From the NCBI GenBank assembly GCA_000620545.1, contig JIBA01000012.1, positions 558,001 to 622,000 of the forward strand: a stretch of DNA of 64,000 nt, in the 5' to 3' direction. The notes below the pieces were generated by a model. The model made no database searches. It had not been told where the DNA came from and saw only the letters and a list, made by a program, of their open reading frames with translations. The DNA is from Intrasporangiaceae bacterium URHB0013. GTDB taxonomy: Bacteria > Actinomycetota > Actinomycetes > Actinomycetales > Dermatophilaceae. Shown here piece after piece: positions 3,803-42,509 of this stretch. Each line of letters starts with the position of its first letter. Position 1 is the stretch's first letter. A program made the position numbers and the translations under genes.

Positions 3803-4228
3803 TCAGTTAGCCTGCGGCTCAGTCGCTTTCGTCATGGTCCACGAGGCAACCATGTCGTCGCGGTGGCCGGCGACGGAGCACTGCGTTTTGGAGACCTGGT
3901 CGGCGAGGAAGAGCTGTGCGTCGTGCAGCGCGCGGATGAAGTCCATGGCCGCGGTGGGCGAGGCGGTGTCGGCGTAGTCGGCTCGCTCGTGGTCCCGGAG
4001 TGCCGAGAGCATCTCGACGAGGGCGGTGTGATCGGCCCAGCAGGGCGGGACGACGCGGGGCTCGAGGGCGAAGCGGCGGACGAGGTCGTTGACCCACCCG
4101 TCGAGCTCACGCATCCGGTCGCGGGTCTCGTCCTCGGTGAGGGAGGGCCAGTGGACCGGGCCACGGAGCTGGCCGAAGGTCCGCTCGAACGGGTCCTCGC
4201 CGAAGTCGAGGGGCTCGTCCGTGGTCAC
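3803..4228 (-). CDS. DUF4913-like conjugative-element protein
   Basis: 141-aa acidic protein. The central segment (WVNDLVRRFAL, then PPCWADHTALVEMLSALRDHE) matches the pattern I associate with the DUF4913 family, found on actinobacterial plasmids and integrative elements and of unknown biochemical role: a tryptophan-led helix, then C-W-x2-H and a helix ending in an acidic/aromatic stretch. The family call is from memory. It overlaps the upstream HNH gene by 4 bases (ATGA) and lies in the coupling-protein operon. Confidence 0.6.
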   Translation of the reverse strand: MTTDEPLDFGEDPFERTFGQLRGPVHWPSLTEDETRDRMRELDGWVNDLVRRFALEPRVVPPCWADHTALVEMLSALRDHERADYADTASPTAAMDFIRALHDAQLFLADQVSKTQCSVAGHRDDMVASWTMTKATEPQAN

Positions 4229-4635
4229 GATGGCCCTGTGGCAGGACGCTGCTGGCTCGTCTCATGGCGTTGGGCGCGGGCCTTGCGGAGGGCGGCGATG
4301 ATCGCGGCGGTTGCGGTCTGGCGGTCGGTCCGTCGCCAGGTCGGGTGCGAGTCGATGATCGCGTGCAGGGTCTTGTGGTCGCGTCGGCAGAGGGGCAGCA
4401 GGTCGTGGAGCGCCTCGGCGCCGAGTCGGTCGTACGTCGCGTGGTGTAGGTGGCCGGCCTTGAGCGTCCAGCGTCGCCCGCACACGAGGCAGGAGGGTTC
4501 GACGCCGGCGGCGGTCAGCCACGTGGCATACCACTGCTTGCGTCTGTGGCTCCAGGCGCGGGAGTTGAGGTAGGCGTCGTAGGAGGCGCGACGGCTGCGC
4601 AGTGCCGCTCCCTCAGACATGAGCCCGGCTGACAT
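4225..4635 (-). CDS. HNH-type nuclease-like protein
   Basis: About 136 aa. The core reads C-x2-C (CLVCGRRWTLK), then GHLHHATYD, then LLPLCRRDHKTLH, the usual order of a zinc-stabilised HNH/beta-beta-alpha-metal fold with the first His in the HLHH segment. Small HNH proteins in conjugative modules may nick or cleave DNA, but this one could also be a structural zinc protein. I chose ATG 4635 because AGAGGA lies about 6 bases upstream; ATG 4620 is a possible alternative. The start overlaps the end of the coupling-protein gene and the end overlaps the DUF4913-like gene. Confidence 0.7.
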   Translation of the reverse strand: MSAGLMSEGAALRSRRASYDAYLNSRAWSHRRKQWYATWLTAAGVEPSCLVCGRRWTLKAGHLHHATYDRLGAEALHDLLPLCRRDHKTLHAIIDSHPTWRRTDRQTATAAIIAALRKARAQRHETSQQRPATGPS

Positions 4636-6427: not shown

Positions 6428-6585
6428 GCGCGCGGCAGTGTTCGGAACGGTCGATTGAACGCGCTAGCCAGTGGACCGCCGGTGACGGTGCTGATCAGGG
6501 CGCTTGCCGGATATCCGTTATGCAAGCCGTGGATACCGCAGCGGCGCCGCCAGTGCTCGGCCGTGCAGGCGCCGGCCCACCGGCC

Positions 6586-7827
6586 TCAGGGCCTTCGTTG
6601 CAGCACTCGGCAGCTGCGCAGCAGTCTCTCAAGGTCGTCAAATGTCACGGGACGCAGATGGGCCATCTCGTTCCGAACGCGCGCCAGCTCGTTGGCGCAG
6701 CCGGTCAGCAGCGGATCCGCGCCCCCCAGCCGGACCCTCGCTATGTGAGCGAGCTGGCCCACTTCAAGAACGTCTCCCACCCCCGGTTGTTCGTCGAGCA
6801 TCTCAACCGCGGCCCGCCAGCGAGGGCCAAGGCGCTGCACCAGAGCCCCATGGAGTTCTGCGCGGCGCAAGTCGATCCAAGGCAGCAGCACCCGGGCTTG
6901 GGCCCGCCAAAGCAACTGCTCCCAGTCCGGCTCCGTCAACAGACATCCGGCGGCCACGCAAATATCCCCGTGCCAGACGTCTATGTGGCCTGCGTCCCAC
7001 GACCCGGCGAGGTGTGCGGGGGGAGAGACACCAACCCGGGCAGACTTCAGCTCTTCAACACCGAAAATGCCGGACGACCACCATTCCTTGACGTGTCGCT
7101 GCAGTTCAGCGTCTTCCCCATTCCACGTTCGTACCAGGTGCTCAGCGAGCTCGAGGTCCCACCGCGCCACCTCGACAATGACTTCAGCGCGCACTTCCGC
7201 AGGCAGTGAGTGGTGGGAAGCCGGACTGACCCGGGCGACGTGCGCCCCCGAGTCCCACCTGGTGACCCGGTTCCACCACCAGTGGGAGGCGAGCCAGACG
7301 TCCGCCGTCGCTCCTCCCTCCAGGGCTGCGACAGCCTCACGCCCCGCGATGAATGCGAACGTGACGCGGTCAGAGGGAGCGAGGGGGCGGGAAACCTCGA
7401 CGAGCCGACGCACCAAGTCCGGCAGTGCGCCGACTTGATCCGGGGCGAGGTCGGAGACGGAGACGACGATCACCCGCCCATGGACGTCGGGGTGGCGGAT
7501 GAGGTCCTGCAGCGGCAGAGACAGTGCGGTGCTGAAGCAAAGCTGCTGACCCAGCGCCGGTAGGAGGGGCTGCTGGCAGTCCGGGAAAACGCGCTCGCAT
7601 ATGAGGTCGCGCTGGATCATCGCGGTGGTAAGCACGCCCGCCAGCTCGTTCACCGTGTCCGGTGAGACCAGCATCCTTCGCGGGAGGACAGCAACTGTGT
7701 GCAAACCCCGCGCGGCGTCGGCCGTGATGGCGTCGACGAAGGAAGAAGGCCCCGGGAGCCCCCACACCGCCTCAGACAGCACCGGGTCAGTCCTGAGGTC
7801 GGAGTGTCTCGACGATGGCCCGGTCAA
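6586..7827 (-). CDS. HEPN-like partner of the STAND NTPase (possible ribonuclease effector)
   Basis: 413 aa. The C-terminus carries RNEMAH at residues 385-390 in a helix (LARVRNEMAHLRPVTFDDL), matching the RNxxAH form of the HEPN R-x4-6-H motif used by many RNA-cutting toxins. The N-terminal two thirds alternate helices with hydrophobic strands (GRVIVVSVSDL, VTFAFIAGREAV) like a degenerate P-loop or Rossmann fold, but I see no Walker A. The start overlaps the end of the STAND gene by 41 bases, so the two are almost certainly co-translated. Inference: a toxin or effector controlled by the STAND protein. HEPN-like domains can also be non-catalytic, so nuclease activity is unproven. Confidence 0.68.
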   Translation of the reverse strand: MTGPSSRHSDLRTDPVLSEAVWGLPGPSSFVDAITADAARGLHTVAVLPRRMLVSPDTVNELAGVLTTAMIQRDLICERVFPDCQQPLLPALGQQLCFSTALSLPLQDLIRHPDVHGRVIVVSVSDLAPDQVGALPDLVRRLVEVSRPLAPSDRVTFAFIAGREAVAALEGGATADVWLASHWWWNRVTRWDSGAHVARVSPASHHSLPAEVRAEVIVEVARWDLELAEHLVRTWNGEDAELQRHVKEWWSSGIFGVEELKSARVGVSPPAHLAGSWDAGHIDVWHGDICVAAGCLLTEPDWEQLLWRAQARVLLPWIDLRRAELHGALVQRLGPRWRAAVEMLDEQPGVGDVLEVGQLAHIARVRLGGADPLLTGCANELARVRNEMAHLRPVTFDDLERLLRSCRVLQRRP

Positions 7828-10800
7828 GGACCCAGCCTTGTTCCGTCTCCTGCGCCGCGTCGAGAAGTTCGAACCGTCCCACCACCTCGGCAGCGTCGCC
7901 AGGCAATAAGTCCATCAGGTCCGCGATCGTGAGCGGCACTCCTTCGAACAAGCCGTCGTCCCCGAGCTGCGACCACGAGGCCCACTGTTCAGCAGCGGCG
8001 ACGTCGATCCCGGCGGCCCGGATCAAGTCGCGTCCGGTCGTTTGCCTCAGCGACGCGACGATGTCGTCGAGGACCTGCTTGTCGGCCGCCCCCTGGTGCG
8101 ACCTCCGCATCGCCTCTTCCACAAGCGTCGGCCAGCCGGAAGTGACCCGGTGGAGCCGCCGTCGGAGCTCGCGAGTGTCGAAGGGCGATTCGTGCCAGGC
8201 CCCGAGCCCCTCGATCGTCCAGCGGTGCAGCGTCAGGACGGGGACTCTCGACACCAGCGAGTCAATCGTGTCCGCCGCGTCTGATCCCATCACAACCGTG
8301 ACGGAGAGACCGGGGCGGCGGGACTCCTCTTGTAGGCGCAGCACCGACTCCGCGTCCAGGGTGCCGTCGAGGGCGTCGATCACAACGTGACGGCGGACCT
8401 CGCTGCGAGAGATGCGCAAATCGCGCGAGGCGGTATACCTGTCGAATTTCCATCCTTGGTCGACGCTGACCTGTTGGAAAACGTTCGAGACCCGGCGGAT
8501 GCCATTGGCCTCGCTGCCGAAGACCACCGCCAGTCCTCCACCGCCGGTGACCAAGTCTGACGTCGCTCGAACGATCTCTGCGTCGGTGATGGGTGAGCGG
8601 GGTTGCCACGGCTCACCGTGCCCGCGCAACGGCCGTCGGTGCACGACGGGGTTGTATCGATAGGGCAGCTCAAGCGTGCTGTCGGCCTCCTCGAGTTCGC
8701 GCTCAAGGCTGGCGCGGTCTCCCAATAGGCTTATCACGCTTGGAGAGCGGAGCAGGTAGCCACCGGCGTGCCGCACCAAGACGCCTAGTCCTGTCAACTC
8801 GACAAGATAACGCTCGAAGTCCTGACTCGACATCTGTGAGCGGCTGAAGCCGTTGGCCCAGTAAAGTGCGCACTCCTCGTGGAGATCTGTCGCTTGAAAG
8901 GGCTCCCCAGGGCCGGCGTCGAGCGAAAGGAAAGCCACGACGAGGGCAATGACCCTGTACCTGGGGTCGAGGTTGATCGTCCACCTAAAGCGCTGGGCGA
9001 TCAGCTCCCGAACCTCTTGGCTGGTGGTGACGTCGACAACGTCTTGAGCACTGATCTTGACGCGGTTCCCCTGCGGAGAAATGGATCTGCGCTGCACGTG
9101 CTTGACGAGCGCCTCGCAAACGATCTGCACAAGGCTGGCCTGATAGTTGGTCGCCAGCAGGAGACGCCAAATCGCCTCCTCAGACTCGAACTCGTACCCG
9201 AGGGCGAGCATTGGATCGCGAACTAGCTCGCGGGCGTCGGACGGTTGAAGCGGCCCGACTAAGATGTCCGCGCCGCCGTGCGCCACGGGGGTGTTCTCTA
9301 GGTCGTGGAAGCGTTGGACCTGGTGAAGGCCCGCGAAGACAGGCTTGAAGCGCCGGTCCGTACTCTCCATGAGGCCCTTGAGCTCCTGCAATACGGGGAA
9401 GGCTCCCGTGCCATCGCTGGCCCGAGCGCCCGCGTCTGCGGTGAGGAAGTTGTCAGCCTCGTCGAGGAGGAGGAGCAACCGGTTCGACGGGTCGGCGGCC
9501 AGCCACGTCCGCACAATGTCGGCGATCCGTTTGGCGCTCCAGTGCTGGCGCTCGCTCCGCGGGATGACCTGCTCGTCCTGCAGGTGCTCGGCGATGACCG
9601 ACCAGGTGTCCGCGGGTTCCCGCATCGTCCCGATGCCATTTGCTTGTAGGTCGAGGTAGAGCACGACCATGCCCGTGCGCGGTGCGAGCTCCTTGGCCGG
9701 CGCGACAGGGCTGGGGTCTGTGAAGGTTCGCTGCACCTTGCGAAGCAGCGCTGACTTGCCAAGCTGGCGGCCGCCGTATACGAACATGGATCCGGTCGGG
9801 TCGACGATCTGGCTCTGCTCGTGCTCACGGCCCACGAAGACCTCGTCCGGCACCGCTCCACCGGCGAACGGCGTGTAGGGGTTCAGGGTCGTGAAGGGCA
9901 AAGTGACCCGCTGCGTCAGCTTCCACCCGGGCTCTGCCTGGGCGGACAGCCAGCCAGCGACCGCCTCGTCCACCACTAGGGGCGACAGCCCGGTACCCCG
10001 GCCCCTCCCGCTCAGACGTCGCAGGTCCGACCGCTGTGCTGGGGTGAGCACCCCGAAGTACAGGATGATGTTCGCCGACATCCGCTTCTGGGCAGGGATG
10101 AGCTCTAGCAGACGCTGGGGCGTCGAGCTGTCCCACACGAGCGTGACCTGGTAGATCCCGTTGGCTTGGGTGCCGAGCGAAGGTATGTAGGAGCGCCCGA
10201 GAGGGGTGGCGTTTACAGTGACCGTCGCGTAGCCGGCACGTTTGGCTACGCCTGACTCCCGGAACCAATTGTCGGACCTAGGGATAAGGCCGATCAGGCG
10301 CAGCACTTGGGCAAGATTCACGGCGAAGCTGGCCCCACGCTTCTCCTTCTCCAGGTTGCGCCACGCCGTGGCCCCCTCGCGGAGAATGCGGTTGTCGGGA
10401 AGGTCTTGCGGCCCGACCCGCTTACGCGCGAAGCTGCGCACGGCTTGCAGTCGTCCGGGTCCCGGGTTCCGTATGGCGACATCCACAACCGCAGGGAAGA
10501 ACGTGCAGAAGTCGTCCCCAGGTGGCGGCTCGATTCTCGGCAGTTCCTGCCCCACCTCGAGCATGGCTAGGAACTCGGCGGCTAGTGCCTCGTCACCTAC
10601 CTCGAGCAGCCCATCGATCCGCGCGCGGTCCTCGACCTGCCTCACCGTGGACGCGCGCTCGCGCAGCCCCTGACGTGCGGCCCCCAGCGCGTTGTTCGCC
10701 TGGGTCTCCAGAAGACCGAGTGCCTGCAGCGTCAGGTCGAAGCGGCCGGAATCGTCGCCGGGCTCAACGAGCGCTGGATCCGCAAGGATCTGGCGTGCAT

Positions 10801-13552
10801 CCTCCTCGTGAAAAAGGCTGCGAAGCCGTGCAGCCAGCCGCTCCACCTCGGCCCGCGCCGAGGCGACCCGGGCCTTGGCGTTCGCCGTGCCGACCTGGAC
10901 GCGCTCCTCGAAGCCTGCACGTGTCCCATCACTAACGGTCGCCAAGAGTTCTACGACCGCCGCAAAATTCCCCGCCTCAATGTGGCCGCGGACCGCCTCG
11001 TCCGCGTCCCGTCCGGCGATGAGCACACCGAGCTCGGCCGCTGTCGGCGATCGGTGTGGCCGGCCCTTGCGGTCCCGGGGCAGCTCGTACAGCGGCAGCA
11101 GGCAGCGCTGCAGCAGCTCATCGACCTCGCCGCTGGGCAATACGCCGTCCTGGGGAGTACTGAGCCAGCTAACGAGCCTTGACATGGCCGCATGTCCGAC
11201 GGTTGCCGGCTCGGTCGCGCCGGTAACCGCAGCAGCCAAGGAGGCAGAGAAGTCGTGAAGGACATCAGCGCCTCCACGGAGGGATGCCGCATGGGTCCGC
11301 CGCTGGAGCTCCAGCATTTCGGCCATGAGTGCCCGAACGTCGAGTATCGCGTTCTCGATGGCATCCCGTGCAGGCCCCACGATCTCCTTCCGCAGCTGCT
11401 GCCTTGAGCTGACCGAGCGGTCCGCGCTCGACAGAAGCGCTCGGCGGTGGTCCCCGTCGCCCCAGGCGCGGTAGTTGACCTCCACCAGACCCCATCGGGC
11501 GTCCGACGTCGCTTTGCTCCCTCCCTGCGCCAGCTCTTCGAGCAGCGACAGGATGTCGCCCAAGGGCTGCCCCTCGCCCACCAGGTGATGAATCACTTTG
11601 GATGCACGTTGGAAATTCGTCCGGCTGCCCGCCAGACGCGACCGCAGCCGCGCCGCGTCTTGGGCCCGCGCCACCCACGAGGCGGGTAGCTCACTCAACT
11701 CAAGAATGCCTACTGAGGAGTCATGGCGATAACCCGTCATTAGAACCGCATCGGCCGCCTCGCGGACCAACTTCCCTTCCGCCGTCTCGACCATGCCCGC
11801 CCGAACAAGCAGATCGTCGACGGGCCCGAGCGGCAGGTATCCCAGCGCCAGCCCGGCGCGCATGAGCGCACTCAGGAAGACTTGGGCCTCGTCAGCAGTC
11901 AGCTCTTTATCTTCTTCGCCAGTCACCAGGAGGTCGGGAAGCTGAAGGGCGAGCGACTCGGAATCTAGGTTGAACGCTGCCACCAGAAAGCGCAGGAGAC
12001 CAAGTCTGCACTCTGTCGTGTGCGCACTATTTGCCACCTGGTAGGCGAGCGCCTCCTGTCCTCGGCTAATGAGGTACGCCAGAAGCGGTGGCGAGCCAGT
12101 CTCCCATGGGTTCGCAGGCACGCTAACTTGCCGCCAAGGTGGCGCTGCCGCAGGCGCGGACTCCTGCTCCTCCTGAACCAAGTTCGGCTCCGCAGCCGAA
12201 GCCGGCCCCGCTACCGACTCGCGCTTTGCCGCAAGCACTGACTCCGGCTCCGCCACTGGTTCTGCAGCCGTCACCGGCTGGTGCTCGTCCGCCACCAACT
12301 CCCGCTCTGCAACCGCAGCCGGCTCCGGCTCTACAACCGGAGCCGGCTGCGGCTCTGCGGCCGCCACTGGCTCGTGCTCGATAGCCGGCTTCGGCTCCGG
12401 CTCTGCAGCCGCCGGCTCCTGCTCGACCACCAACTCCGGCTCTGCAGCCGCCACCGGCTCGTGCTCGATAGCCGGCTTCGGCTCCGGCTCTGCAGCCGCC
12501 GGCTCCTGCTCGACCACCAACTCCGGCTCTGCAGCCGCCACCGGCTCGTGCTCGATAGCCGGCTTCGGCTCCGGCTCTGCGGCCGCCATCGGCTCCTGCT
12601 CGACCACCAACACCGACTCCGGCTCGTGCTCCGGCTCTTGGTGGGCCGCCACCATCAACTCACGCTTTGGCTCCTGCTCGGAAATCGCGACCGGCTCGTG
12701 CTCCGCCGGCGCCACCAACTCCGGCCTCGAAACGATGTCGATCGAAGACGCAGCCCCAAGCTGCTGCGCGATGGCCGCGTCCAAGGCTTCCAAGTCCGCG
12801 AATCCGTGTTGCCTGAGGATGTCAAGAGCCCAGCGCCTGCCGACGCCGCTCTCCACGTCCACTGCCGCCCGGCGCAACTCGATTAGTTTCTGAACCTCAT
12901 CTTGCTGGCGCAGCTCCTCGGTCACCTTCGTCAGCCATTCTTGAAGGCGTCCCAGATCTGCGACATCGTCCGGCGACTGCTTGAGTGCGGCCCAAGTCCG
13001 TGCGCACCAATCCGCAACGACCGTCCAGTCGAAATTGGAATGCCGGCCAGCCGCGACGTCCTCGACCGCTATGCGCAGCGGCCCTTCCAGTGCCCTCGCT
13101 TCGCTTAGGAGAGAAGTGACCTCGTGGAAGGCGCCCGCCAACTCCTCGCGACTTTGTGGCCTGCGGTCCTCCCCCTCGACGGCTGGGCTGCTCTCCTGAT
13201 CAACCCCTGAAGGTGATGCGGGCCGCTCCAGCCGGAACTCCCGTAGCACGAGGTCAGCGAGGTGCTCGGGCAGCTCCCTGATCACCAAACCGAGGAAGGC
13301 GACGACGGCTTCGTCCTCCTCCTGTTCTGGCCAGCGCGTGTAAGCGTTCCACAGGCTCGCAATAGCGGCGGGTCTACGCGCCAGCTGCGTCTGGAGCGAC
13401 TGAGACGCTCTGCGGCCACCGGACATGAGGGTCGCGACGGGGAGTTTGCATTCTCGCGCCACGACCTCGCTTAAGCCAGGGAGCTTCTGCACTAGAAGCA
13501 GGATGTCATCCACGGGAAGCTCGAGCAGAGGATGCTTGTGGGTGGTGGTCAT
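7787..13552 (-). CDS. Giant STAND-like NTPase with EP-rich repeat linker
   Basis: 1921 aa. Residues 1-290 are helical and without known domain; about 290-480 is an EP/A-rich low-complexity linker built from a 29-aa repeat; about 480-1200 is again helical. The NTPase domain opens with FVGREHEQ, then Walker A GGRQLGKS at 1260-1267 and Walker B LLLLLDEADNF near 1363, the signature of AAA/STAND ATPases, and runs to a winged-helix-like region near 1600. A second, P-loop-like but degenerate domain follows (about 1660-1860; VVFGSEANG, then HVVIDALDG). STAND proteins commonly sense invaders or damage and switch on an effector, which fits the overlapping HEPN-like gene. It is transcribed divergently from the DEAH-helicase operon. 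The name of the family is not known to me. Confidence 0.75.
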   Translation of the reverse strand: MTTTHKHPLLELPVDDILLLVQKLPGLSEVVARECKLPVATLMSGGRRASQSLQTQLARRPAAIASLWNAYTRWPEQEEDEAVVAFLGLVIRELPEHLADLVLREFRLERPASPSGVDQESSPAVEGEDRRPQSREELAGAFHEVTSLLSEARALEGPLRIAVEDVAAGRHSNFDWTVVADWCARTWAALKQSPDDVADLGRLQEWLTKVTEELRQQDEVQKLIELRRAAVDVESGVGRRWALDILRQHGFADLEALDAAIAQQLGAASSIDIVSRPELVAPAEHEPVAISEQEPKRELMVAAHQEPEHEPESVLVVEQEPMAAAEPEPKPAIEHEPVAAAEPELVVEQEPAAAEPEPKPAIEHEPVAAAEPELVVEQEPAAAEPEPKPAIEHEPVAAAEPQPAPVVEPEPAAVAERELVADEHQPVTAAEPVAEPESVLAAKRESVAGPASAAEPNLVQEEQESAPAAAPPWRQVSVPANPWETGSPPLLAYLISRGQEALAYQVANSAHTTECRLGLLRFLVAAFNLDSESLALQLPDLLVTGEEDKELTADEAQVFLSALMRAGLALGYLPLGPVDDLLVRAGMVETAEGKLVREAADAVLMTGYRHDSSVGILELSELPASWVARAQDAARLRSRLAGSRTNFQRASKVIHHLVGEGQPLGDILSLLEELAQGGSKATSDARWGLVEVNYRAWGDGDHRRALLSSADRSVSSRQQLRKEIVGPARDAIENAILDVRALMAEMLELQRRTHAASLRGGADVLHDFSASLAAAVTGATEPATVGHAAMSRLVSWLSTPQDGVLPSGEVDELLQRCLLPLYELPRDRKGRPHRSPTAAELGVLIAGRDADEAVRGHIEAGNFAAVVELLATVSDGTRAGFEERVQVGTANAKARVASARAEVERLAARLRSLFHEEDARQILADPALVEPGDDSGRFDLTLQALGLLETQANNALGAARQGLRERASTVRQVEDRARIDGLLEVGDEALAAEFLAMLEVGQELPRIEPPPGDDFCTFFPAVVDVAIRNPGPGRLQAVRSFARKRVGPQDLPDNRILREGATAWRNLEKEKRGASFAVNLAQVLRLIGLIPRSDNWFRESGVAKRAGYATVTVNATPLGRSYIPSLGTQANGIYQVTLVWDSSTPQRLLELIPAQKRMSANIILYFGVLTPAQRSDLRRLSGRGRGTGLSPLVVDEAVAGWLSAQAEPGWKLTQRVTLPFTTLNPYTPFAGGAVPDEVFVGREHEQSQIVDPTGSMFVYGGRQLGKSALLRKVQRTFTDPSPVAPAKELAPRTGMVVLYLDLQANGIGTMREPADTWSVIAEHLQDEQVIPRSERQHWSAKRIADIVRTWLAADPSNRLLLLLDEADNFLTADAGARASDGTGAFPVLQELKGLMESTDRRFKPVFAGLHQVQRFHDLENTPVAHGGADILVGPLQPSDARELVRDPMLALGYEFESEEAIWRLLLATNYQASLVQIVCEALVKHVQRRSISPQGNRVKISAQDVVDVTTSQEVRELIAQRFRWTINLDPRYRVIALVVAFLSLDAGPGEPFQATDLHEECALYWANGFSRSQMSSQDFERYLVELTGLGVLVRHAGGYLLRSPSVISLLGDRASLERELEEADSTLELPYRYNPVVHRRPLRGHGEPWQPRSPITDAEIVRATSDLVTGGGGLAVVFGSEANGIRRVSNVFQQVSVDQGWKFDRYTASRDLRISRSEVRRHVVIDALDGTLDAESVLRLQEESRRPGLSVTVVMGSDAADTIDSLVSRVPVLTLHRWTIEGLGAWHESPFDTRELRRRLHRVTSGWPTLVEEAMRRSHQGAADKQVLDDIVASLRQTTGRDLIRAAGIDVAAAEQWASWSQLGDDGLFEGVPLTIADLMDLLPGDAAEVVGRFELLDAAQETEQGWVLDRAIVETLRPQD
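12369..12629. repeat. 87-bp in-frame tandem repeat, about three copies
   Basis: Units begin at 12369, 12456 and 12543, exactly 87 bases apart. The first two are nearly identical; the third degenerates after about 50 bases. It encodes the 29-aa acidic Pro/Glu/Ala repeat of the STAND protein linker. Less regular copies of the same codon pattern continue toward 12180 and 12720. Confidence 0.85.
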
Positions 13553-14156: not shown

Positions 14157-14567
14157 GTGGCCTGCGGTAACAATCACGTCAGCCGTGACTACCTCTCGTC
14201 GCAACCCTCGTCCCCGAGGACCGCTGCGTCTGCGCTTTCGAGATCCCAGCTCGACGCCGTCGTGGCCGCGCAACGACTCCCAAGCGTCAGCATCGATGGC
14301 GGGAAACAACGTCAGGCGTTCGTATCCCGCTTGGCAAAGGACGGGACGATCGACTACTTCGTCGGTGAGGACGGAGAGCAGGGTCACCATCCAGAACTGC
14401 ACGTCCATGTGATTCACGAGCTCAATGGCAACGTGAAGATGCACGTCACGGACCGTCGGAACGGGCAGACGAAGCATTCCCACCAGATCGAGTTGAAGTC
14501 TCCTGATGGCAACCAAGTCCGCGCGGCAGAGCGAGCCTTGGCCGACGTTCTTCGTTCACTGCGATAA
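14157..14567 (+). CDS. Small first protein of the DEAH-helicase operon, 136 aa
   Basis: Soluble protein, function unknown. The C-terminal half is His-rich and strand-like (HHPELHVHVIHELNG, then MHVTDRRNGQTKHSH), ending in a helix (AAERALADVLRSL). The alternating H-x-H pattern could bind metal or nucleic acid; no family assigned. GTG 14157 follows GGAGGGG with short spacing, so the true start may lie further in. It ends 6 bases before the next gene. An antisense frame (14130-14516) is considered a shadow. Confidence 0.5.
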   Translation: MACGNNHVSRDYLSSQPSSPRTAASALSRSQLDAVVAAQRLPSVSIDGGKQRQAFVSRLAKDGTIDYFVGEDGEQGHHPELHVHVIHELNGNVKMHVTDRRNGQTKHSHQIELKSPDGNQVRAAERALADVLRSLR

Positions 14568-14573
14568 CGCTCT

Positions 14574-16043
14574 ATGAGCGAAGTCCTGCCCCAATCCAGC
14601 GCGCTCGAGCAACTCGTGTTCGTATACGCGACCGAGTGGAAGCAACCTGTTCGCGACCTTCTCCTTGCGCCCGAAGGATTCGGAACTGCGCACACCGTTT
14701 CAGACGCAGTCCACCTGCTCCCATCGGATTGGCGTGGATCCCTTCTGCCGCTCTGTCTTGTTGACGAGGGAAGTATCGCTGTCGTTGCGATCGACGCGGC
14801 CATCCCTGGGACTCGCGAGGGACACGTCTATCGGCTTCACCTTTCGACGGTGCCGGCAGAGCATCAACTCCAGTTGCTCGACATCGATCCACTCCTCTAC
14901 GTCGCCTCGATCGAAGAAGAGCTCGTAGCTAGGAAGGCTGGGCTTCGGCGAGTACTTGATCAGATCGGTCCCGCGTACGAGCGCAGCCACCTTGACAAGG
15001 AGAAGCGCCCGCGGGATTTCGTCGTAAGGCCCGTGCGGGTCGCATGCCAGAACGTCATCGTCGCGTTGGGAGCGATAGCTCATGACTCCAGCTTCGACGG
15101 GCTCTCCGTACCAGCTTGGCAAACCTGCGAGGTCCCGCACGTCGCAACCCATGAGGCCAATCGAGCCCTTGCTGCCCTTACGCTCTGTGACGCGTTCCAG
15201 AGCGGAGGAACGATGGAGATTCGTTTCGACCGCAAGTCGCGGATCGTCCATAAAGGCAACCCACTTGATCTCCCCGGTCACCCGGAGATGGCAGTGCCGG
15301 CAAGCCTGAGGCGATTCGGCCGAACGGTTGGCGTCTCACTAGGCGACGAGGATCACGCAGCCATCAGTCCTCGGGAAGCCCGCGACCTCTTCTTGGCGAT
15401 CACGCCGATGCCCCCTGCCTTGAGAACCCGCGTCAACGACGCTGTCGAGAATCGCGGCATCGCTCCGGAACGGATCTGCTTCCTACTCCTCTCCCAGGTC
15501 TGGCGCGAGATCGAGATGGACTACCTGCTCGCAACCACGGGCCGAGCAGCATCAATCCTGAGCGGTGGAGCGGACTGGACCGACCGCTTCGCACGGCAAG
15601 CTGAGTCCGAGATCTGTCGGGGCGCTGTGACCACGGGCATGCTGTTTCGCAGGCTGAACGCCACTTACGGAGCGCCCGGAGGAGGTGAAGTCGTGCGAGT
15701 AGTCGAAGATCGGACCAAGGGCATCCAGTGGGAGGTCCGACCAAACGTTGCCGCGGTGACGCTCACGGGCCTCGACCCTTCCGAGCCCGTCCCGTGGACC
15801 TTTGCAACATCGGCCGTCGACACTCTCACAGTCTTTCCCAGGACTGCGATCAGCGCAGACGTGCTGGGCGAGATTGCCGACGCCGATGTTCCTGGAGACA
15901 AGGCAATCCTCGTCCCCGCAGATGCTCCAACGCCCTCCGCGATGCCCTCGCCCGTTCGGGTACTTAGGTGCCCCGATCGTCTCGCTGACATCGACAAGGC
16001 CATCGAGGACCGACTCCTCAAGTCGAGGATCTCTCGAGGATGA
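14574..16043 (+). CDS. Second protein of the DEAH-helicase operon, 489 aa, unknown family
   Basis: Soluble, no membrane segment. The first 100 residues (LLPSDWRGSLLPLCLVD, then IAVVAIDAAIPGTREGHVYR) faintly recall the SMI1/KNR4 (SUKH) fold, with a short acidic segment inside a small beta-rich domain; this is only a suggestion. The rest is mixed helix/strand with no nuclease, helicase or kinase motif that I can see. It ends with the ATGA overlap into the next gene. Always-adjacent genes of this kind usually act in one complex with the large helicase (inference). Confidence 0.7.
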   Translation: MSEVLPQSSALEQLVFVYATEWKQPVRDLLLAPEGFGTAHTVSDAVHLLPSDWRGSLLPLCLVDEGSIAVVAIDAAIPGTREGHVYRLHLSTVPAEHQLQLLDIDPLLYVASIEEELVARKAGLRRVLDQIGPAYERSHLDKEKRPRDFVVRPVRVACQNVIVALGAIAHDSSFDGLSVPAWQTCEVPHVATHEANRALAALTLCDAFQSGGTMEIRFDRKSRIVHKGNPLDLPGHPEMAVPASLRRFGRTVGVSLGDEDHAAISPREARDLFLAITPMPPALRTRVNDAVENRGIAPERICFLLLSQVWREIEMDYLLATTGRAASILSGGADWTDRFARQAESEICRGAVTTGMLFRRLNATYGAPGGGEVVRVVEDRTKGIQWEVRPNVAAVTLTGLDPSEPVPWTFATSAVDTLTVFPRTAISADVLGEIADADVPGDKAILVPADAPTPSAMPSPVRVLRCPDRLADIDKAIEDRLLKSRISRG

Positions 16044-17218
16044 GTACCGAGCGCGCCTGGGTCATCGGTTTGCCCGCTGACCGCTCAACCATGGGTCTGG
16101 TTGACGACGTCCGCTCTGCGGCTGGCCGGGCGAGCAAGGCTGAGCCAGGCGACCGTCTCGACGTCGCGCGATTCGAGGCACTTGCTTCCCGCCTCGAACA
16201 GGCGGCGCTGAGTCGGGACGGGGCGACGCGCGTCCCGGTCGCCCTTCCGCAACGCGGGCCGACAATGCTGTTCGGTCAAGATGCCAGCGACTGGTCACCC
16301 GGGCTACCCAAGGAGATCATCACCGCCGCAAACGGACTCGCACGGTCCGGGCTCATGCCAGTTCTTGTGGTTGCTCCGCACGGTCCGGGGGACACGAAGA
16401 CCCCATTCCTCGGGGCCGCCGAAGCCCCGGCTGACTCGTGGGAGGCGGACGAGGGCGTCTTCGGGGCTCGCGCGGTGGAAGAGCGATTCCGTGCACAGAT
16501 AAAGGAAGCGCTGAACCCCAGCGCCCAACGACGAGTGCCAATCTCGCCGAGCGGCATCAACAACGCCATCGTGACCGAGATCCTGCGCGAGTTCGTTGCC
16601 TCCGAGCCAGGCATGTCCCAAGTCGAAGCGCCTGTGGAGTATCGCGACGGTTCGAAGGCAGCCCACCCGTTCCCGCTGCGTGCGCTGCCGATGCTCGCCG
16701 AGCTTCCGCCGGCTTCTCTGGAGTTGCGGTTTGCCCTCTTGTCGATCAGACATACCGAGATGGATGCCGTCGTGCACGGCGCTTGGCTCCGCAACGCCGA
16801 GATCTCGCGACCTCGGCCCGCCGCCATGACTGATGATCTCGCGTACGACATCAGCCTGCGGCAGCTCGAGGAGCTTTGCCGGAACGAGGACCACGTGCGT
16901 CTGCACGTGTACCAAACGGGCCTTGAGACCGCCGTCGTGGGCTTCTACCGTGCGCTGACAAACCACTTGATGAGGTTTCCGGGCTCAGTGTCAGTGCAAC
17001 CGATGTACCACGTAGCGCCCCCCAAGCCGAAGAAGCACCCAACCGAGCGGGACGGAAGGGTCGGCGCCGGACAGAAATCTAGACGCGGCAACCACAACGC
17101 CCGCAATCGTGACGACGCGGGGAGTGGTGCAGACCGCGTCATCAACCCAGACAAGCGCCAAGGCCAGGTCGTCGCGCAGAGCAGTACCTTCCGAAAGGGG
17201 ACCCCGTGGACGGCGTAA
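16040..17218 (+). CDS. Third protein of the DEAH-helicase operon, 392 aa, unknown family
   Basis: Alpha/beta protein with a conspicuous hydrophobic strand (LMPVLVVAPHGPGD) and a basic, Gly/Arg/Asn-rich tail (about residues 335-380; KSRRGNHNARNRDD) that looks like an unstructured RNA- or DNA-binding tail. No known catalytic motif found. It is coupled at both ends: its ATG overlaps the previous stop as ATGA, and its 3' end overlaps the helicase start by 13 bases. Function probably shared with the helicase. Confidence 0.7.
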   Translation: MSTERAWVIGLPADRSTMGLVDDVRSAAGRASKAEPGDRLDVARFEALASRLEQAALSRDGATRVPVALPQRGPTMLFGQDASDWSPGLPKEIITAANGLARSGLMPVLVVAPHGPGDTKTPFLGAAEAPADSWEADEGVFGARAVEERFRAQIKEALNPSAQRRVPISPSGINNAIVTEILREFVASEPGMSQVEAPVEYRDGSKAAHPFPLRALPMLAELPPASLELRFALLSIRHTEMDAVVHGAWLRNAEISRPRPAAMTDDLAYDISLRQLEELCRNEDHVRLHVYQTGLETAVVGFYRALTNHLMRFPGSVSVQPMYHVAPPKPKKHPTERDGRVGAGQKSRRGNHNARNRDDAGSGADRVINPDKRQGQVVAQSSTFRKGTPWTA

Positions 17219-20200
17219 GCGGCACTGGAACGCCGAAGCGCGGTATGTCGGCGTCGCACATGCGAGCCTTCACGTGCAAGGACTGTCAGCGTGAAGTCGA
17301 CGGCATGCAGGTCGAGCTCGCAGCTTCGGAGAGCCACGGGGCCAGCAAGGCCGAACTCAAGAAGCTGAGGGCCAAACTGGACTGCCGACTAGAGAAGGCG
17401 ACATACAACGAGAACTGGGCGCGGAACCTAGTCGAGCGGGGTGGGTCGCGGTCAGACCGCTGCAAAGAGCATCGTGCGAAGCATCGCGTCAACATCCAAG
17501 GCTTGGCCGTTGCCTACATTGACTTAAAGACCGTGGGCGAGGTATCCGACCGGGAGAACCCAACCGGACCCCTCGGGGGCCTCGGGCCGCTTCCCACCGC
17601 GCACGAAGAGGTTCCGGGAACAAGTTACGACCTCGAAGAGGTCCGAGTCGGCATGACCGATGACCACGTCGTGGAGATGGTGGGGAAACTCAGGCAGAAG
17701 CAGGTCCTCATTCTGAAGGCAGGTACCGGGACCGGGAAGTCCACCTTTGCGCCCTACAGACTCATGGATCCCCCGCCCGCAACGGTGTCCGACGTCCCGC
17801 CCGGAGCACCATTCGCGAAACTGACCGATCTAGGTCCCATCATCGTCACGGAACCTCGCGTGCAGGCCGCCGTTGGAGTTGCGTCCTTCGTCGGAGGCGT
17901 GATGTCCGGCGCAGGCGGCGTTGGCCCTGGCTACCCCGTGGGCTACCAAGTGTCTGGGGATCGAAATCACGACGAAGCGTGCGAGCTGATTTACGTCACC
18001 GACGGAACGATGATCAACTGGCTCCGCGAAGGCCGTTTGAGCCGAATCGGGACAGTGATCGTGGACGAAGCTCACGAGCGCAGCACCAACATCGACTTCA
18101 TCATGGGCTACTTGAAGCGCGAGCTGCCTCGATACCCGCATCTCCGGGTGATCGTCACATCGGCAACGTTCAACACGGACTTCTACCTTGAGTACTTCGG
18201 TGGTCCGGCGAACGTCCACGTGATGGACGTTCCACCGGAAAAGACCTTCGGTTACGGAATGCCGTTCTTCCCCAACCTCGATGCCCCAGAGGTCGGCGAA
18301 GAGGAAGTGCTTGATCGCTGGACCGACCCTGCTCTGCCACTGGTCGCCCAGACGCCGCGAGACGAAACAGATTTCGTCAAGACCCACTGGAAGTCGCAGT
18401 TTGCGGAGCCATTGCAGTACCCAGACGATGTAGCCGACAAGTCCGACGACGGCTTCATCGAGGACGTCTGGGAGACGACGCGGCTGATCTCCGACCTACG
18501 CTTCGATAGAAAGATCCCAGTCGAGGAGTGGCAGGAGCGGATGCCGGGCGAGATGGCCAAGTTCGTCATTAAGCTCGCCCGCGGGCTGGACGACGCCGAA
18601 ATCTTTGGTGACATCCTTGGATTCCTCCCGACGAAACGGACCATAGAGCCTGTTTGCGAGGAGATCGAGCGAGCGCTGGGCCGAGCTTACAAAGATCAGG
18701 TCTTCCCGTTGATCTCCAGTCTGCCCAAGGATCGACAGAAGCGAGCCCTGGCAAAGCGGAGGATGGGGGACCCACGCAAGATCGTCATCTCAACGAACCT
18801 TGCCGAGACGTCGCTGACTGTTGAAGGCGTCCGGTTCGTTGTCGACAGCGGCATCATCGCCCAATCCGAGTGGGACCCAGAGCTCGCCAAGGGCAGCATC
18901 CCGACCAAGCCACACAGCCAGGCGGGAATCAAGCAAAGGTGGGGCCGAGTAGGGCGTAAGGCACCGGGTTGGGTGTTCCCGTTGTACACGAAGGCACAGT
19001 TCCTCGACCTTGCCGAAGACACTCCGCCCGGCTCGACTCGCGACAACCTCGAAGCCCTCGTCATGACAGCCAAGATGGGCGGTATCGACAACGTACTCAG
19101 CTTCGACTGGCCGGCCGCGTTCCAGCCAACCACTGTGGAGCTTGATGAGAAGGCCAAGCAAGCGCGCGAAGTATTCGTGAGGGAACTCCACCGCGCAGAC
19201 CACGCCCTTCGCACTGGCGGCGCCGTCGACGATGACGGCCATCCCACATCCTTCGGCAAGGAACTCGTCCGGTTCCAAGGCCTCGGGTCAACAGCGAGTG
19301 CATTGGCGATTATGTATGCTGATCGACTGGCGTGCGTGCCCGAGGTTGCAACTGTCATTGCACTACTGGAAGACACACGACTCATTGGCCAGCGGGGCCT
19401 CCTTCTGGACGACTACGACTGGCCGGACGATTGGCGCCTAGAGGCAGCCGAACGCCATCGTGGACTTGCCACGCTGTGCGAAGACGAAGCGGAACTCGTC
19501 CTCCTAATCAGTGCGGCGTGGGAGTGGTCCGACCCAAACCAAGCACCTTGGGTGGACTCCGTAGCTCGGCAGGACTGGGCACGTCAATGGTGGGTCAATC
19601 ACGCCGTTCTACTGGAAGCAGCCCAAAAGCGTCACGATGTGCTCGCCGCACTTTCACCCGCCATGAAGGAAGAGGTGAAGCGCTTCGTCGAACCGGCACT
19701 CATCAACCGCACGCGCGGAGTCATAACCCGAGCCATGGCTGCGAACATTTTCGTCCGCTGCGCTGAAGACGGCTACGCAGCTGCGGGAGCGCTGCCATCC
19801 AAACCAAACCCACCGTTCGTCGACGGGAATGGATCAGCTGAGCCCACCCTGCCCCTTGGTGACGCCTCGGATACATCAATCCAACCAACACCCCCGTCCC
19901 GGCCCTTCACGCTCGAGGAGGACTCACTGCTGAAGCCGGGATCGGAACAGGTTGTGGCACTGAGGCGCCGTGGGTCAAAGCTCGACAACCGGCTCTCATC
20001 GCTTGTGGTTGCACAGGAGTGGGCGATGCCCAAGCCCCGGACGAAGCAGCCATCGAGCATCGTTGACGCAATGCAGATGCTCGTGGCTGCATCAAAGTTC
20101 GCGCCCGCCGATGCTGCCAAGAGTGAAGCCCTGCAGTACATCGAAGCTTGGCCGGTCGGCCAACGAGTCCAACTCGAACTAGAAACTGTCGACGGGACCA

Positions 20201-23200
20201 CTACCGCCAGGACGCTCTCGGCTCCGTTGAGGCCCTTCCCCAGACCGAAGTCCCGAGAGGAGCGAGGGGACGACACACGTCGCGGTCGAAGTGGCCGCCA
20301 GCAGCCCCGGCGCCCAGTTGAGGATGAGGACTCCGGCTCCCGAGAAGACATCGCGACCGAGTTACGCCTCGACCAACGCCGCGGGTACGACGACGAAGGC
20401 AGCGAGCGAGCCAGGCTACTCCAGGCCGACCAGGACAGTGGATTGCTGCAAGCTTGCGGTCAGTGCTTCCCCTGCCGGGACGACCGACCCGAGGACTGCG
20501 AGCGAAATGGAAGTCCGAGCGAGCCAGGAAAGAGAGAGGACCTTCTCGCGCAGTGGCGACACCAGGCAACCCACGGCACAGATGTCTCGACACCCCGGGT
20601 TGAGATTGATACGACTTCGATCCACTCCGGTGGTTGGTTCGAAGTAACCGGGTACGCCCGGGATGAGAACGGGTTTCTGGTGAAGCTCCGATCCGACTGG
20701 CGACGAGGCGAGGCGAGCAATGCCGGCCAGCACCCGGACCTGAAGGCAGGCGACCCCATAGACGTCCGGGTTGGCCAGTTGCTTAGGCACCACGGCGGCT
20801 CGCTCCGCGCATTCGACCGAGTCGATGGCAAGGGGCGATTCATCCTCGCCGAGGCCCGCAGCCGATACGCCAACGAACAGGTTCGTCGGCGCGAAATCGC
20901 CGTCAGTCTCGATCGAGGCCAGACCGGCCTCTTGGAGAGACTTGCACGCGAGTCAATCGTCAAAGCGACAGTCGTCCCCGCACGTGCCGAGGGGACGTTG
21001 ACCATCACCCTTCTGGAGCTACTGCATCAACACTGGTCCAAGGCACAGGACGGCCGCGGAGCAAGCAACGAGATCCTTCAGCAGCGGGGGCGCAACCACC
21101 GCCGAGAGAGAGTCCACACCGCTGTCGTCGACTCCGCCGCGAACGTCAACGGTTACGTGACTGCCCGTCTACTTCACCAAGACAGCAAGCTCGGAGTCGT
21201 CCACAGATTCGACTTCAGCGTGAAGCCTCGTGTTCAGGAGCGCCCAGCCGGAGGCGACCCTGTTGAGGCCGAGGCGCCCAACTACGAACCCCAACTCGCA
21301 ACCGGTGACGCGATCATGGTGAAGCTGCAAAGCGACCGCGCGAGCCTCGACGTCACTGGCCTTAGCGTCGAAGCCCTCCGAAGCATCGAAGCACAGCAAG
21401 CAGGACAGATCACGATCAACGGGCTTCCTGACGAGAGTAAGAGGTCTGCGAGCAATGCTAAGCGGGCACGCAGCGGCGAGGCCTCGCCTACACCCTCCGA
21501 CGGCGACGCCGTGGCGACCCAGGACCCGGACAGTGAGGACTCGGCCACCGACCAGGGCGAACTCGCACCCTCGGGCACCGAGGTGCTGGCCAAGACCGAG
21601 AAACCCCTCTCACGTTCGGCCGCGGCCGCCCTTGTAGGTCTCAGCGACGAGCCCGACTGGCCAAATGAGGTCTGGTCATTTTGGGCCCGCACCCACCACC
21701 TGCGCGTCGACGACCGAACCCCATTCATTCCAGGCATGCTCAAAGAGCCGTTCGAGGTGCCCGCAACGGTACACATCGAAGAGTCCACTCCCGCAGAACA
21801 GCGAAAGGTTCAGCTCGCTGCATTTGCCGCCGCGCACCCCATTAACAGCGTGGTCGAGTGCGTGGTGAGATCCCTCAGCAACAGCGGCGTCATCGTGGAT
21901 CTCGAAGGCGGCGTCGAAGGATTCATTCCGCTGGCCGAACTGTCTTGGGCCAACCGAGTCAGACACGCCGATCAAATCGTCACGCCCGGCCGCGCACTAT
22001 TCGGCGTCGTGCTGGACATCCCCGATCCTCCAGCCCGACCTCGGGTGTCGGCCAAGGCGCTCATTCGAGACCCCTTCGAGGCCTTCAAGAGCCTCTACCA
22101 GCCAGGGGCACGGGTGACTGGAACGGTAGACGGGGCGATCGATAGCGCTGTCTTCGTCGACCTTGGGAACGACTTGGACGGGTCGATCCACGTCTCGGAA
22201 CTTGACTACGCACCGGTGGACACAGCCGTCCACTTTGCCGAAGTTGGCGCAACCATTGAGGTGGAAGTCCTCGGCTTCGATGAACGCACGCGCAAGGTGA
22301 ATCTCTCCCGCAAGCGAACGCTTCCTCACCCATACGAGGACTACAAGCTCCATCACAATCTCGGCGAGACGGTAACAGCCCTTGTGCGTCGAGTCTCTGC
22401 GACACACGTGAATGTGAAGGTCGGAGCGCTCGATGGTGTGGTCCACGTCAGCAATCTTCGGTGGGAGCGAGTTGATGACGCCACCATGCTCTACGCGCCG
22501 GGTTCGACGTTCGACGCTCGACTCATCAAGTTCAACGATGCAAAGCGGCAACTAGAACTATCGGTGAAGGCTCTTCTTCCCGAGCCCTATCAGGACTTCA
22601 AACGCCAGCACCGCGTTGGAGACTCCGCTGACTTCACAGTGACGCGTGTGTCTAAGACGCATGTCAACGTCCGCCACGTGAGCGGTGCTCCCGGAGTCCT
22701 GCATGTGAGCCAGCTTGAGCATTCGCGCGTCGACGACGCATCATCGAAGTTTCGAGCCGGCGACAGCCTCAGAGCCAAGATCCTGAAGTTCGACGACGAA
22801 CGCCGACAGGCAGAGCTCTCGATAAAGGCCCTGCTCCCTGAGCCGTATCCGGCATTCAAGGCAAGCACGCCGATCGGATCCGCGATCTCCGCGGAGGTGA
22901 CGGGATTCAACGACTATTTCGCGTACGTGAGACTCCCGGGCGGCGTCGATGGCAGCATCCACGTTGCGCAGATCTCAGCAGCACGCGTGGGAAAACCGTC
23001 AGACGCTCTCACGCGAGGACAACGCGTCACAGCTGTCGTAGTCGGCTTCGACGATCAGCGCAAGAAGGTAGAACTTTCGCTCCGGCAAGCACCATCCGCA
23101 TCCGCTTGGCCGCCCAGCGGCTCTCCGACCGCAGCCGCAACCCCTACCCGGGCGTCAGTAACACCAGGGGCGGCGACACCTTCGGTTGCGCCGCCCCGCG

Positions 23201-23385
23201 TGACAAGGCCGGCACCAAGATCCCTCACGGTGGAGGCTGAGACAGTCGCGGAGGCCATCACCAAAGCATGTCGCCAACTCAACGTTTCGACGTCTGAAGT
23301 GACACATCAGGTCCTTGACCCGGGAGCGCCCAAACGATTCCTGCGTGCAGGTCGGCCGGCGCGAGTGTGCGTAACGACGAGGTAG
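17206..23385 (+). CDS. Giant DEAH/HrpA-type helicase with five S1 domains and a Jag_N-like C-terminus
   Basis: 2059 aa. Order: zinc-ribbon-like N-terminus (CKDC near residue 27, RCKEH near 85); DEAH helicase with Walker A GTGTGKST at 173-180, DEAH at 287-290, VTSATFN, STNLAETSLTVEG and motif VI QRWGRVGRK at 577-585; a helical HA2-like part; two OB-like stretches (about 1130-1400); five S1 RNA-binding domains (about 1546, 1635, 1720, 1805, 1891 to 1962); and a Jag_N-like domain at about 2007-2055 (EAETVAEAITKACRQLNV). HrpA homologues are about 1300 aa and remodel RNA or ribonucleoprotein; five S1 repeats plus Jag_N strengthen an RNA target. GTG 17206 was chosen because AAAGGGG lies just upstream; ATG 17245 is an alternative. 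The product ends a four-gene coupled operon. Confidence 0.88.
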   Translation: MDGVSGTGTPKRGMSASHMRAFTCKDCQREVDGMQVELAASESHGASKAELKKLRAKLDCRLEKATYNENWARNLVERGGSRSDRCKEHRAKHRVNIQGLAVAYIDLKTVGEVSDRENPTGPLGGLGPLPTAHEEVPGTSYDLEEVRVGMTDDHVVEMVGKLRQKQVLILKAGTGTGKSTFAPYRLMDPPPATVSDVPPGAPFAKLTDLGPIIVTEPRVQAAVGVASFVGGVMSGAGGVGPGYPVGYQVSGDRNHDEACELIYVTDGTMINWLREGRLSRIGTVIVDEAHERSTNIDFIMGYLKRELPRYPHLRVIVTSATFNTDFYLEYFGGPANVHVMDVPPEKTFGYGMPFFPNLDAPEVGEEEVLDRWTDPALPLVAQTPRDETDFVKTHWKSQFAEPLQYPDDVADKSDDGFIEDVWETTRLISDLRFDRKIPVEEWQERMPGEMAKFVIKLARGLDDAEIFGDILGFLPTKRTIEPVCEEIERALGRAYKDQVFPLISSLPKDRQKRALAKRRMGDPRKIVISTNLAETSLTVEGVRFVVDSGIIAQSEWDPELAKGSIPTKPHSQAGIKQRWGRVGRKAPGWVFPLYTKAQFLDLAEDTPPGSTRDNLEALVMTAKMGGIDNVLSFDWPAAFQPTTVELDEKAKQAREVFVRELHRADHALRTGGAVDDDGHPTSFGKELVRFQGLGSTASALAIMYADRLACVPEVATVIALLEDTRLIGQRGLLLDDYDWPDDWRLEAAERHRGLATLCEDEAELVLLISAAWEWSDPNQAPWVDSVARQDWARQWWVNHAVLLEAAQKRHDVLAALSPAMKEEVKRFVEPALINRTRGVITRAMAANIFVRCAEDGYAAAGALPSKPNPPFVDGNGSAEPTLPLGDASDTSIQPTPPSRPFTLEEDSLLKPGSEQVVALRRRGSKLDNRLSSLVVAQEWAMPKPRTKQPSSIVDAMQMLVAASKFAPADAAKSEALQYIEAWPVGQRVQLELETVDGTTTARTLSAPLRPFPRPKSREERGDDTRRGRSGRQQPRRPVEDEDSGSREDIATELRLDQRRGYDDEGSERARLLQADQDSGLLQACGQCFPCRDDRPEDCERNGSPSEPGKREDLLAQWRHQATHGTDVSTPRVEIDTTSIHSGGWFEVTGYARDENGFLVKLRSDWRRGEASNAGQHPDLKAGDPIDVRVGQLLRHHGGSLRAFDRVDGKGRFILAEARSRYANEQVRRREIAVSLDRGQTGLLERLARESIVKATVVPARAEGTLTITLLELLHQHWSKAQDGRGASNEILQQRGRNHRRERVHTAVVDSAANVNGYVTARLLHQDSKLGVVHRFDFSVKPRVQERPAGGDPVEAEAPNYEPQLATGDAIMVKLQSDRASLDVTGLSVEALRSIEAQQAGQITINGLPDESKRSASNAKRARSGEASPTPSDGDAVATQDPDSEDSATDQGELAPSGTEVLAKTEKPLSRSAAAALVGLSDEPDWPNEVWSFWARTHHLRVDDRTPFIPGMLKEPFEVPATVHIEESTPAEQRKVQLAAFAAAHPINSVVECVVRSLSNSGVIVDLEGGVEGFIPLAELSWANRVRHADQIVTPGRALFGVVLDIPDPPARPRVSAKALIRDPFEAFKSLYQPGARVTGTVDGAIDSAVFVDLGNDLDGSIHVSELDYAPVDTAVHFAEVGATIEVEVLGFDERTRKVNLSRKRTLPHPYEDYKLHHNLGETVTALVRRVSATHVNVKVGALDGVVHVSNLRWERVDDATMLYAPGSTFDARLIKFNDAKRQLELSVKALLPEPYQDFKRQHRVGDSADFTVTRVSKTHVNVRHVSGAPGVLHVSQLEHSRVDDASSKFRAGDSLRAKILKFDDERRQAELSIKALLPEPYPAFKASTPIGSAISAEVTGFNDYFAYVRLPGGVDGSIHVAQISAARVGKPSDALTRGQRVTAVVVGFDDQRKKVELSLRQAPSASAWPPSGSPTAAATPTRASVTPGAATPSVAPPRVTRPAPRSLTVEAETVAEAITKACRQLNVSTSEVTHQVLDPGAPKRFLRAGRPARVCVTTR

Positions 23386-42507: not shown

Positions 42508-42509
42508 GC

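Follow-up and report, generated by a model that had tools for sequence, protein, structure and literature searches.

A rare operon places a DEAH RNA helicase beside tagged proteins with exchangeable C-terminal domains

Within a 64,000-nucleotide stretch of the genome of Intrasporangiaceae bacterium URHB0013 (contig JIBA01000012.1, positions 558,001 to 622,000; hereafter the window), three genes that we call g1, g2 and g3 lie directly upstream of a gene for a very large DEAH/RHA-type RNA helicase. All four are on the plus strand (Table 1), and spacings of +6, -4 and -13 bases between consecutive genes suggest that they probably form a single transcription unit. A first-pass annotation, made from the letters of the stretch, had described four coupled reading frames here, and that layout is borne out. 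Here we report that g2, g3 and the helicase form a constant core, and that g1 belongs to a family of tagged, domain-swapped genes, a point absent from the earlier annotation. We propose that the operon is a candidate conflict system carried by mobile elements.

The upstream genes had been described as lacking a recognized function, and g1, g2 and g3 of the window indeed have no credible family match in Pfam, PADLOC, NCBIfam or PHROGs. Their best library match is that of g3 to an uncharacterized PHROG (E = 0.025).

Table 1. Operon genes and helicase features in the window, with Pfam scores in bits where a domain profile was matched
Feature	Position	Strand	Evidence
g1, tagged effector gene (136 aa, GTG start)	14157-14567	+	ORF list, seven-member alignment
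g2, core protein (489 aa)	14574-16043	+	ORF list, alignment, structure model
g3, core protein (392 aa)	16040-17218	+	ORF list, alignment, structure model
DEAH/RHA-type RNA helicase (2059 aa, GTG start)	17206-23385	+	ORF list, Pfam, NCBIfam
Putative zinc-binding motif C24-x2-C27...C86-x2-H89, helicase N-terminus	17275-17484	+	Eye, regex
DEAD/DEAH motor domain 1, residues 163-323	17692-18174	+	Pfam DEAD (30.1, cut-off 26)
Helicase_C domain, residues 465-585	18598-18960	+	Pfam (36.6, cut-off 23.5)
Five S1 RNA-binding domains, residues 1547-1960	21844-23085	+	Pfam (five stretches, 169.7, cut-off 22), locally built S1 model
Jag_N-like C-terminal domain, residues 2009-2057	23230-23376	+	Pfam (34.9, cut-off 25)

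A sporadic operon with a fixed gene order

A g3 alignment was searched against one genome per species, covering 84,980 species, and yielded 13 loci, a lower bound because the scan relied on two short peptide patterns. Together with the window and two plasmids, this gives 16 loci, referred to by L numbers where they need to be told apart. The hosts are Nostocoides, Rhodococcus, Sinomonas, Lentzea, two Nocardia, two Streptomyces, a Geodermatophilaceae bacterium and the bacterium of the window; metagenome-assembled genomes of Actinomycetes, Acidimicrobiales, Patulibacter and Coriobacteriales; Paenarthrobacter (plasmid pB); and a Chloroflexota genome (Viridilinea). The first-pass annotation had proposed a genome search for the gene neighborhood as a check, and the neighborhood recurs: g3 is followed by the helicase in 16/16 loci, the order g2-g3-helicase holds in all 15 whose contig extends to g2, and a similarly tagged gene adjoins g2 in 14 of the 15 that extend far enough. 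g2, g3 and the helicase motor region have also diverged congruently (r = 0.958, 0.968 and 0.973; 91 pairs from 14 loci).

As the species scan had started from g3, plasmids were also searched with the helicase sequence of three loci. Among the matches listed (40 of 119, 15 of 52 and 15 of 53 records), helicases of the operon type occur in Paenarthrobacter and Streptomyces only, and both of these plasmid records also carry g2 and g3. The other listed matches are of HrpA, HrpB or S1 type and of lower coverage, and two records that match through S1 similarity alone (L009, L010) are not members. A helicase found mainly alone in housekeeping loci would have spoken against the earlier proposal, and these searches did not return that pattern.

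The operon is rare and sporadic. g2 occurs in 2 of 197 relatives, the window genome included, is missing from the eight other same-genus genomes listed, and is present in 2 of 72,556 plasmids, the same two that a g3 query finds. g3 occurs in 2 of 148 genomes of a genus taken as Nocardia. As lower bounds, with five candidates scored per genome, it is found in at least 1 of 396 phylum genomes and at least 1 of 396 order genomes (the window's own in each case), and in at least 1 of 392 genomes of a genus taken as Streptomyces, where the match is weak and partial (L028, E = 6e-4). These genome samples overlap. Two further records, L029 and L030, were left out of the locus count; the coordinates of L030 are those of L021.

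Sequence identities suggest that the operon has been transferred horizontally. By taxonomy Sinomonas is nearer to the window's host than Rhodococcus, yet the window copy is closer to that of Rhodococcus (g2 82%, g3 70%, helicase 85% identity) than to that of Sinomonas (71%, 65% and 82%). g3 has no relatives among 50,697 phage records, and scans of viral contigs with the g2 and g3 alignments, which rest on one or two short peptide patterns, returned none either; the helicase of a distant member matches three phage records, annotated HrpA or HrpB. On these searches we rejected a phage or viral origin of the operon.

A constant tag precedes exchangeable domains

Residues 1-17 of g1 form the tag, a GTG start followed by ACGNNHVSRDYLSSQP, and the rest of the protein is of a type that we call HxH/TDR, or HxH for short. 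Tagged genes are codirectional with the core in ten loci and divergent in four (L020, L021, L022, L023). The exception, L024, has no tagged gene beside g2, and L019 does not enter the count since its contig starts within g3. The tag consensus is M-[AG]-C-(G)-N, with MGCNN or MGCQN in the second of two helicase groups described below.

Across 741,600 strand-bases of the loci, 12 open reading frames of at least 60 aa begin with [MV][AG]C(G)N, and 12/12 adjoin the core; this strict pattern leaves out L008 (MGCQN) and L023 (VACIK). A looser scan, for M[AG]C reading frames of 90 aa or more lying no further than 3 kb from the core, returned four extra ones, in L011, L022, L023 and L024, which were taken as chance. 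At the DNA level, the tag pattern has one match in the entire window genome and occurs in 1 of 396 phylum genomes, the window's own, with none for a reversed-pattern control. The sole viral contig with the pattern, L031, holds an out-of-frame chance match within a phage gene. Codons within the tag vary synonymously, indicating that the conserved thing is the peptide.

Behind the tag, the domains differ. Seven loci, including the window, have in common a small C-terminal domain with invariant H82, H84, T98 and R100, and the alignment of these seven HxH-type proteins also shows C3, N5, N6 and R10 to be invariant. Profile searches matched nothing credible to the HxH domain; its gene position suggests that it may be a toxin or nuclease. 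Outside the operon, no stand-alone effector of the window's HxH type was found in 68 relatives, the sole match being the window genome. The L020 effector is an EndoU_bacteria protein (E = 2.3e-12), and that of L021, which ends at a contig edge after 60 aa, resembles it by eye. L023 encodes an Endonuclea_NS_2 (NS_2) domain (E = 1.9e-10). The effectors of L022, L008, L025 and L026 have in common a D-x(n)-ExK motif, as PD-(D/E)XK nucleases typically do, an assignment made by motif (the ExK stretch of L025 reads VEVKA), with weak profile support from a below-cut-off NOV_C match in L022 (E = 0.0066). The tally is seven HxH, four PD-(D/E)XK-like, one EndoU plus one partial, and one NS_2. Mapped onto the helicase tree, effector type appears to have switched several times while the core was retained.

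Some of the swapped types are usually linked to DNA cleavage, and another is an RNase type. The first-pass annotation had read the operon as an RNA-targeting machine, which these effectors qualify: the helicase likely recognizes RNA, whereas DNA-cleavage-associated types stand beside the RNase type among the effectors. RNase and probable DNase effectors in one slot suggest that the helicase controls a toxin, rather than delivering substrate to a fixed nuclease.

Core proteins as a possible adaptor and a possible nucleotide receptor

The structure model of g2 (pLDDT 84.7) has a SUKH-like part (residues about 7-121) and a GNAT-like part (residues about 116-278), and the SMI1_KNR4 (SUKH) profile scores above its gathering cut-off in a relative's g2 (E = 1.2e-5). 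GNAT proteins carry a glycine-containing acetyl-CoA P-loop motif, Q/RxxGxG/A. We regard g2 as a SUKH-like and GNAT-like adaptor that may read the tag. Residues about 134-392 of g3 resemble SAVED/CARF nucleotide receptors in the predicted model (pLDDT 76.2, pTM 0.55), and g3 may accordingly act as a receptor of this kind. The two proteins are mutually unrelated by profile comparison; a g3 match to a 'Titin' construct (E = 0.0011, 40 positions) and a g2 match to L7Ae (E = 0.054) were dismissed as chance.

With a constant N-terminus and variable C-terminal domains of predicted toxin type, the tagged genes are built as polymorphic toxins are. EndoU toxins and SUKH immunity proteins are parts of such systems in passages of PMC3482391, and the operon has counterparts to both, with swapped nuclease domains (EndoU, NUC, PD-(D/E)XK-like) and an immunity-type SUKH domain nearby. 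The likeness would fit a secreted toxin system, with the tag as trafficking signal and the core making or loading the toxin. We consider this improbable: the constant part is a short tag rather than a known trafficking domain, Pfam recognized none of the latter in those tagged proteins that were scanned, and a helicase and receptor core whose modules look intracellular accompanies the toxin. The SUKH domain lies inside g2, and no separate immunity gene was identified in the partly scanned flanks, where no systematic search for one was made.

The predicted fold of g3 invites a second comparison, with Cap4/Cap5 of cyclic-oligonucleotide-based anti-phage signaling systems (CBASS) and with the CARF effectors of type III CRISPR systems. 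Unlike these, g3 has no recognized fused nuclease, neither PADLOC nor Pfam names a CD-NTase cyclase among the four operon proteins, and an RNA helicase is present instead. A third comparison is with TERNS3 conflict systems, described in passages of PMC8195603 as having OST-HTH plus S1 modules within MoxR-vWA systems. The operon is like them in its multiple S1 domains and conflict context, but neither an OST-HTH plus S1 module nor MoxR-vWA is recognized in it.

None of the four operon proteins matches a PADLOC model at E <= 1, and no description of the operon was found in the accessible literature, including passages of PMC8195603, PMC3482391 and PMC7159879, most subscription papers being outside this scope. 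Within that reach, the earlier statement that no described system has this architecture is supported. Immune systems are already known to use receptors, SUKH domains and nuclease toxins that can be exchanged; as far as we found, the assembly and the tag are new.

The helicase forms its own clade with a variable RNA-binding tail

The first-pass annotation had given the helicase a zinc-ribbon-like N-terminus, a complete DEAH motor, five S1 domains and a Jag_N-like end. The last three stand. Motifs I (AGTGTGKST), II (DEAH), III (SAT) and VI (QRWGRVGR) are intact in the window, and all domain profiles, including those of S1 and Jag_N, whose failure would have told against the annotation, pass their curated cut-offs. 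Motifs I, II (DEAH), III (SAT) and VI (QRxGRxGR) are present in 15/15 helicases examined, L017 being left out as its stretch ends within the helicase and covers the first 197 aa. The N-terminal cysteine motif recurs in varied form among relatives; Pfam support for a zinc fold is weak and comes from distant ones, as in L026 (zf_Tbcl, E = 0.0096).

DEAH motor motifs and Helicase_C place the protein alongside HrpA, HrpB and the eukaryotic DEAH/RHA helicases Prp22/DHX8 and Prp43. DHX8 carries an S1 domain. The operon helicase differs from HrpA and HrpB in forming a separate clade, in its N-terminal cysteine motif, in its variable S1, KH or Jag_N tail and in its constant g2-g3 neighbors. A tree of the motor region resolves two groups of operon helicases, that of the window with AGTGTGKST and a second comprising L008, L024, L025 and L026.

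The tail varies widely between loci. By a locally built model, S1 domains number five in the window, L011, L015, L016 and L018, four in L007, two in L020, L021 and L023, one to two in L008 and L025, one in L024 and L026, and zero in L019 and L022. KH domains are found in L019 (E = 1.6e-6) and L024 (E = 7e-15), with a below-cut-off match in L022 (E = 0.0017). Pfam detects Jag_N in the window, L007 and L018; in L011 and L016 it is assigned from resemblance to the end of the window helicase. This variation suggests that the RNA-binding tail is kept as a function and not as a domain; the Jag_N end is a lineage feature, not the system's central part. In L022 (10911-16817), the helicase end is Arg-rich and non-protein-like, and the C-terminus may reflect a frame error or decay.

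The kinship with HrpA raises the alternative of a horizontally acquired complex for the quality control of RNA or ribosomes, in which the small gene would supply an ordinary nuclease and no toxin. Passages of a review (PMC13159725) report that HrpA rescues stalled ribosomes in E. coli, the S1, KH and Jag_N tails would suit such work, and among solved structures the helicase comes nearest to DEAH proteins of splicing type (160 bits) and to HrpA (at most 138 bits). We nonetheless think it unlikely. Motor-region identity to E. coli HrpA and HrpB is 24-31% (the two are 31% identical to one another), and scores fall far under the NCBIfam equivalog cut-offs (HrpA, 167 vs 722.75 bits; HrpB, 150 vs 1053). 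The window genome retains its own HrpA-like protein (1382 aa, 67% identity to E. coli HrpA in the motor region), as well as an S1 protein distinct from the operon helicase. On clade position, equivalog cut-offs and this resident HrpA, we rejected a housekeeping HrpA paralogue; the sporadic distribution and the exchange of the effector domain for unrelated nuclease folds also count against a quality-control role.

The operon occurs on mobile elements

In the window, the operon sits inside a conjugative element, between the genes for a coupling protein and a TrwC relaxase; the stretches 1623-6427 (-) and 36174-39170 (+) encode a DnaG-like primase, the type IV secretion system coupling protein and the relaxase. 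Typing places L007 among the MOBP conjugative plasmids, and the operon occurs on a second plasmid. For loci other than the window, some flanking genes were scanned. These include an integrase and ArdC at L018, a DnaG-like primase and IS110 at L017, a transposase-type integrase core at L015, a C5-methylase at L022 and an NYN-domain protein at L026.

Such settings favor the main rival to anti-phage defense, a competition or addiction module borne by plasmids or integrative and conjugative elements. Its nuclease would kill cells from which the element has been lost, or rival elements, with the core as antitoxin and regulator and no phage trigger. The conjugative plasmid, the second plasmid, the window's position between coupling-protein and relaxase genes, the integrase and ArdC at L018 and the immunity-type SUKH domain within g2 all agree with this reading. 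On the other side, an addiction module would hardly seem to need some 9 kb of core genes that include a large RNA helicase and a SAVED-like receptor. We give it a minor, though real, chance.

A proposed model for effector release by an RNA-sensing core

We favor the reading that the operon is a mobile conflict system, most likely an abortive anti-phage defense, with a probability of about 0.5. A role against phage is plausible, and anti-phage defense is the likeliest purpose. More tentatively, and with a lower probability, we suggest a new immune class in which the RNA helicase would monitor RNA or stalled translation, signal via the SAVED-like receptor and release whichever nuclease bears the short M-[AG]-C-N tag that is read by the SUKH/GNAT-like adaptor, the effector evolving interchangeably while the sensor stays constant.

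Under this model, the core would consist of the helicase, with its putative zinc motif and exchangeable S1, KH or Jag_N tail, the g3 receptor and the g2 adaptor, and would bind one small effector protein, identified via its constant N-terminal tag. The core would sense and restrain; the tagged protein would execute. The trigger may be an encounter of the helicase with abnormal RNA or stalled translation, the binding of a nucleotide signal by g3, or both. Judging by its tail and motors, the helicase may act on RNA, mRNA or ribosomes, and g3 may contribute a nucleotide signal or stabilize the complex. Once triggered, the core would free or activate the effector, nucleic acid would be degraded by an EndoU, NUC or PD-(D/E)XK-like domain in relatives or by the HxH domain in the window, and the infected cell would be arrested.

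If this is correct, one system would unite three immune ideas that we have not found combined elsewhere: sensing by a DEAH RNA helicase, a receptor of SAVED-like type, and nucleases that carry a tag and can be exchanged, with the short N-terminal tag serving as the plug for effectors. The operon would then be a simple setting in which to study how a bacterial RNA helicase, on recognizing RNA or stalled translation, brings about cell arrest, and its tag would be a sequence handle for discovering more effectors.

Neighboring genes

A pair of genes, NAD-synthase-like (c7) and TauD-family (c6), adjoins the operon in three genera, at L007 (7247-10465), L020 (1188-4395) and L025 (16365-18750), accompanied by a P450 (Pfam) in L007 and L020. 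TauD scores above cut-off in L020 and just below it in L025, and is assigned by homology in L007. Such a cassette could mean that the operon serves self-protection or regulation for small-molecule production. Consistent with this, c7 is 53-66% identical across the three loci and is covered to at least 80% in 1 of 72,556 plasmids, namely the one with the core. The pair was not found in the examined flanks of the other loci, the window included, and we regard this explanation as very improbable.

Further along the window, and on the same conjugative element as the operon, consecutive genes for a C5-cytosine methylase, Vsr, a HATPase protein and an Mrr_cat-ResIII helicase form a restriction-type cluster (40449-46519, +), followed by two more genes (46525-48516), the second with a Sigma70_r4 match. 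Divergent from the operon, a gene at 7787-13552 (-) encodes a 1921-aa protein that contains long Glu/Pro/Ala repeats and, at residues about 1239-1410, a stretch with a sub-threshold match to AAA_16/AAA_22 ATPases; it has no PADLOC match. Adjoining it is a gene for a 413-aa protein without an assigned family (6586-7827, -).

At L023, a DUF429-RelA_SpoT fusion (5165-6922, -) adjoins the NS_2 effector gene. Directly downstream of the L019 helicase (6687-10070) lie vWA, PP2C and kinase-like genes, the kinase match being below cut-off, a trio that we take to resemble a TerY-type triad. In the two Nocardia loci, an Hsp70 homologue is encoded one gene downstream of the helicase (L020, 15198-17875, by Pfam; L021, 7918-10460, 78% identical to that of L020), and the protein that precedes it in both has a weak GrpE match in L021.
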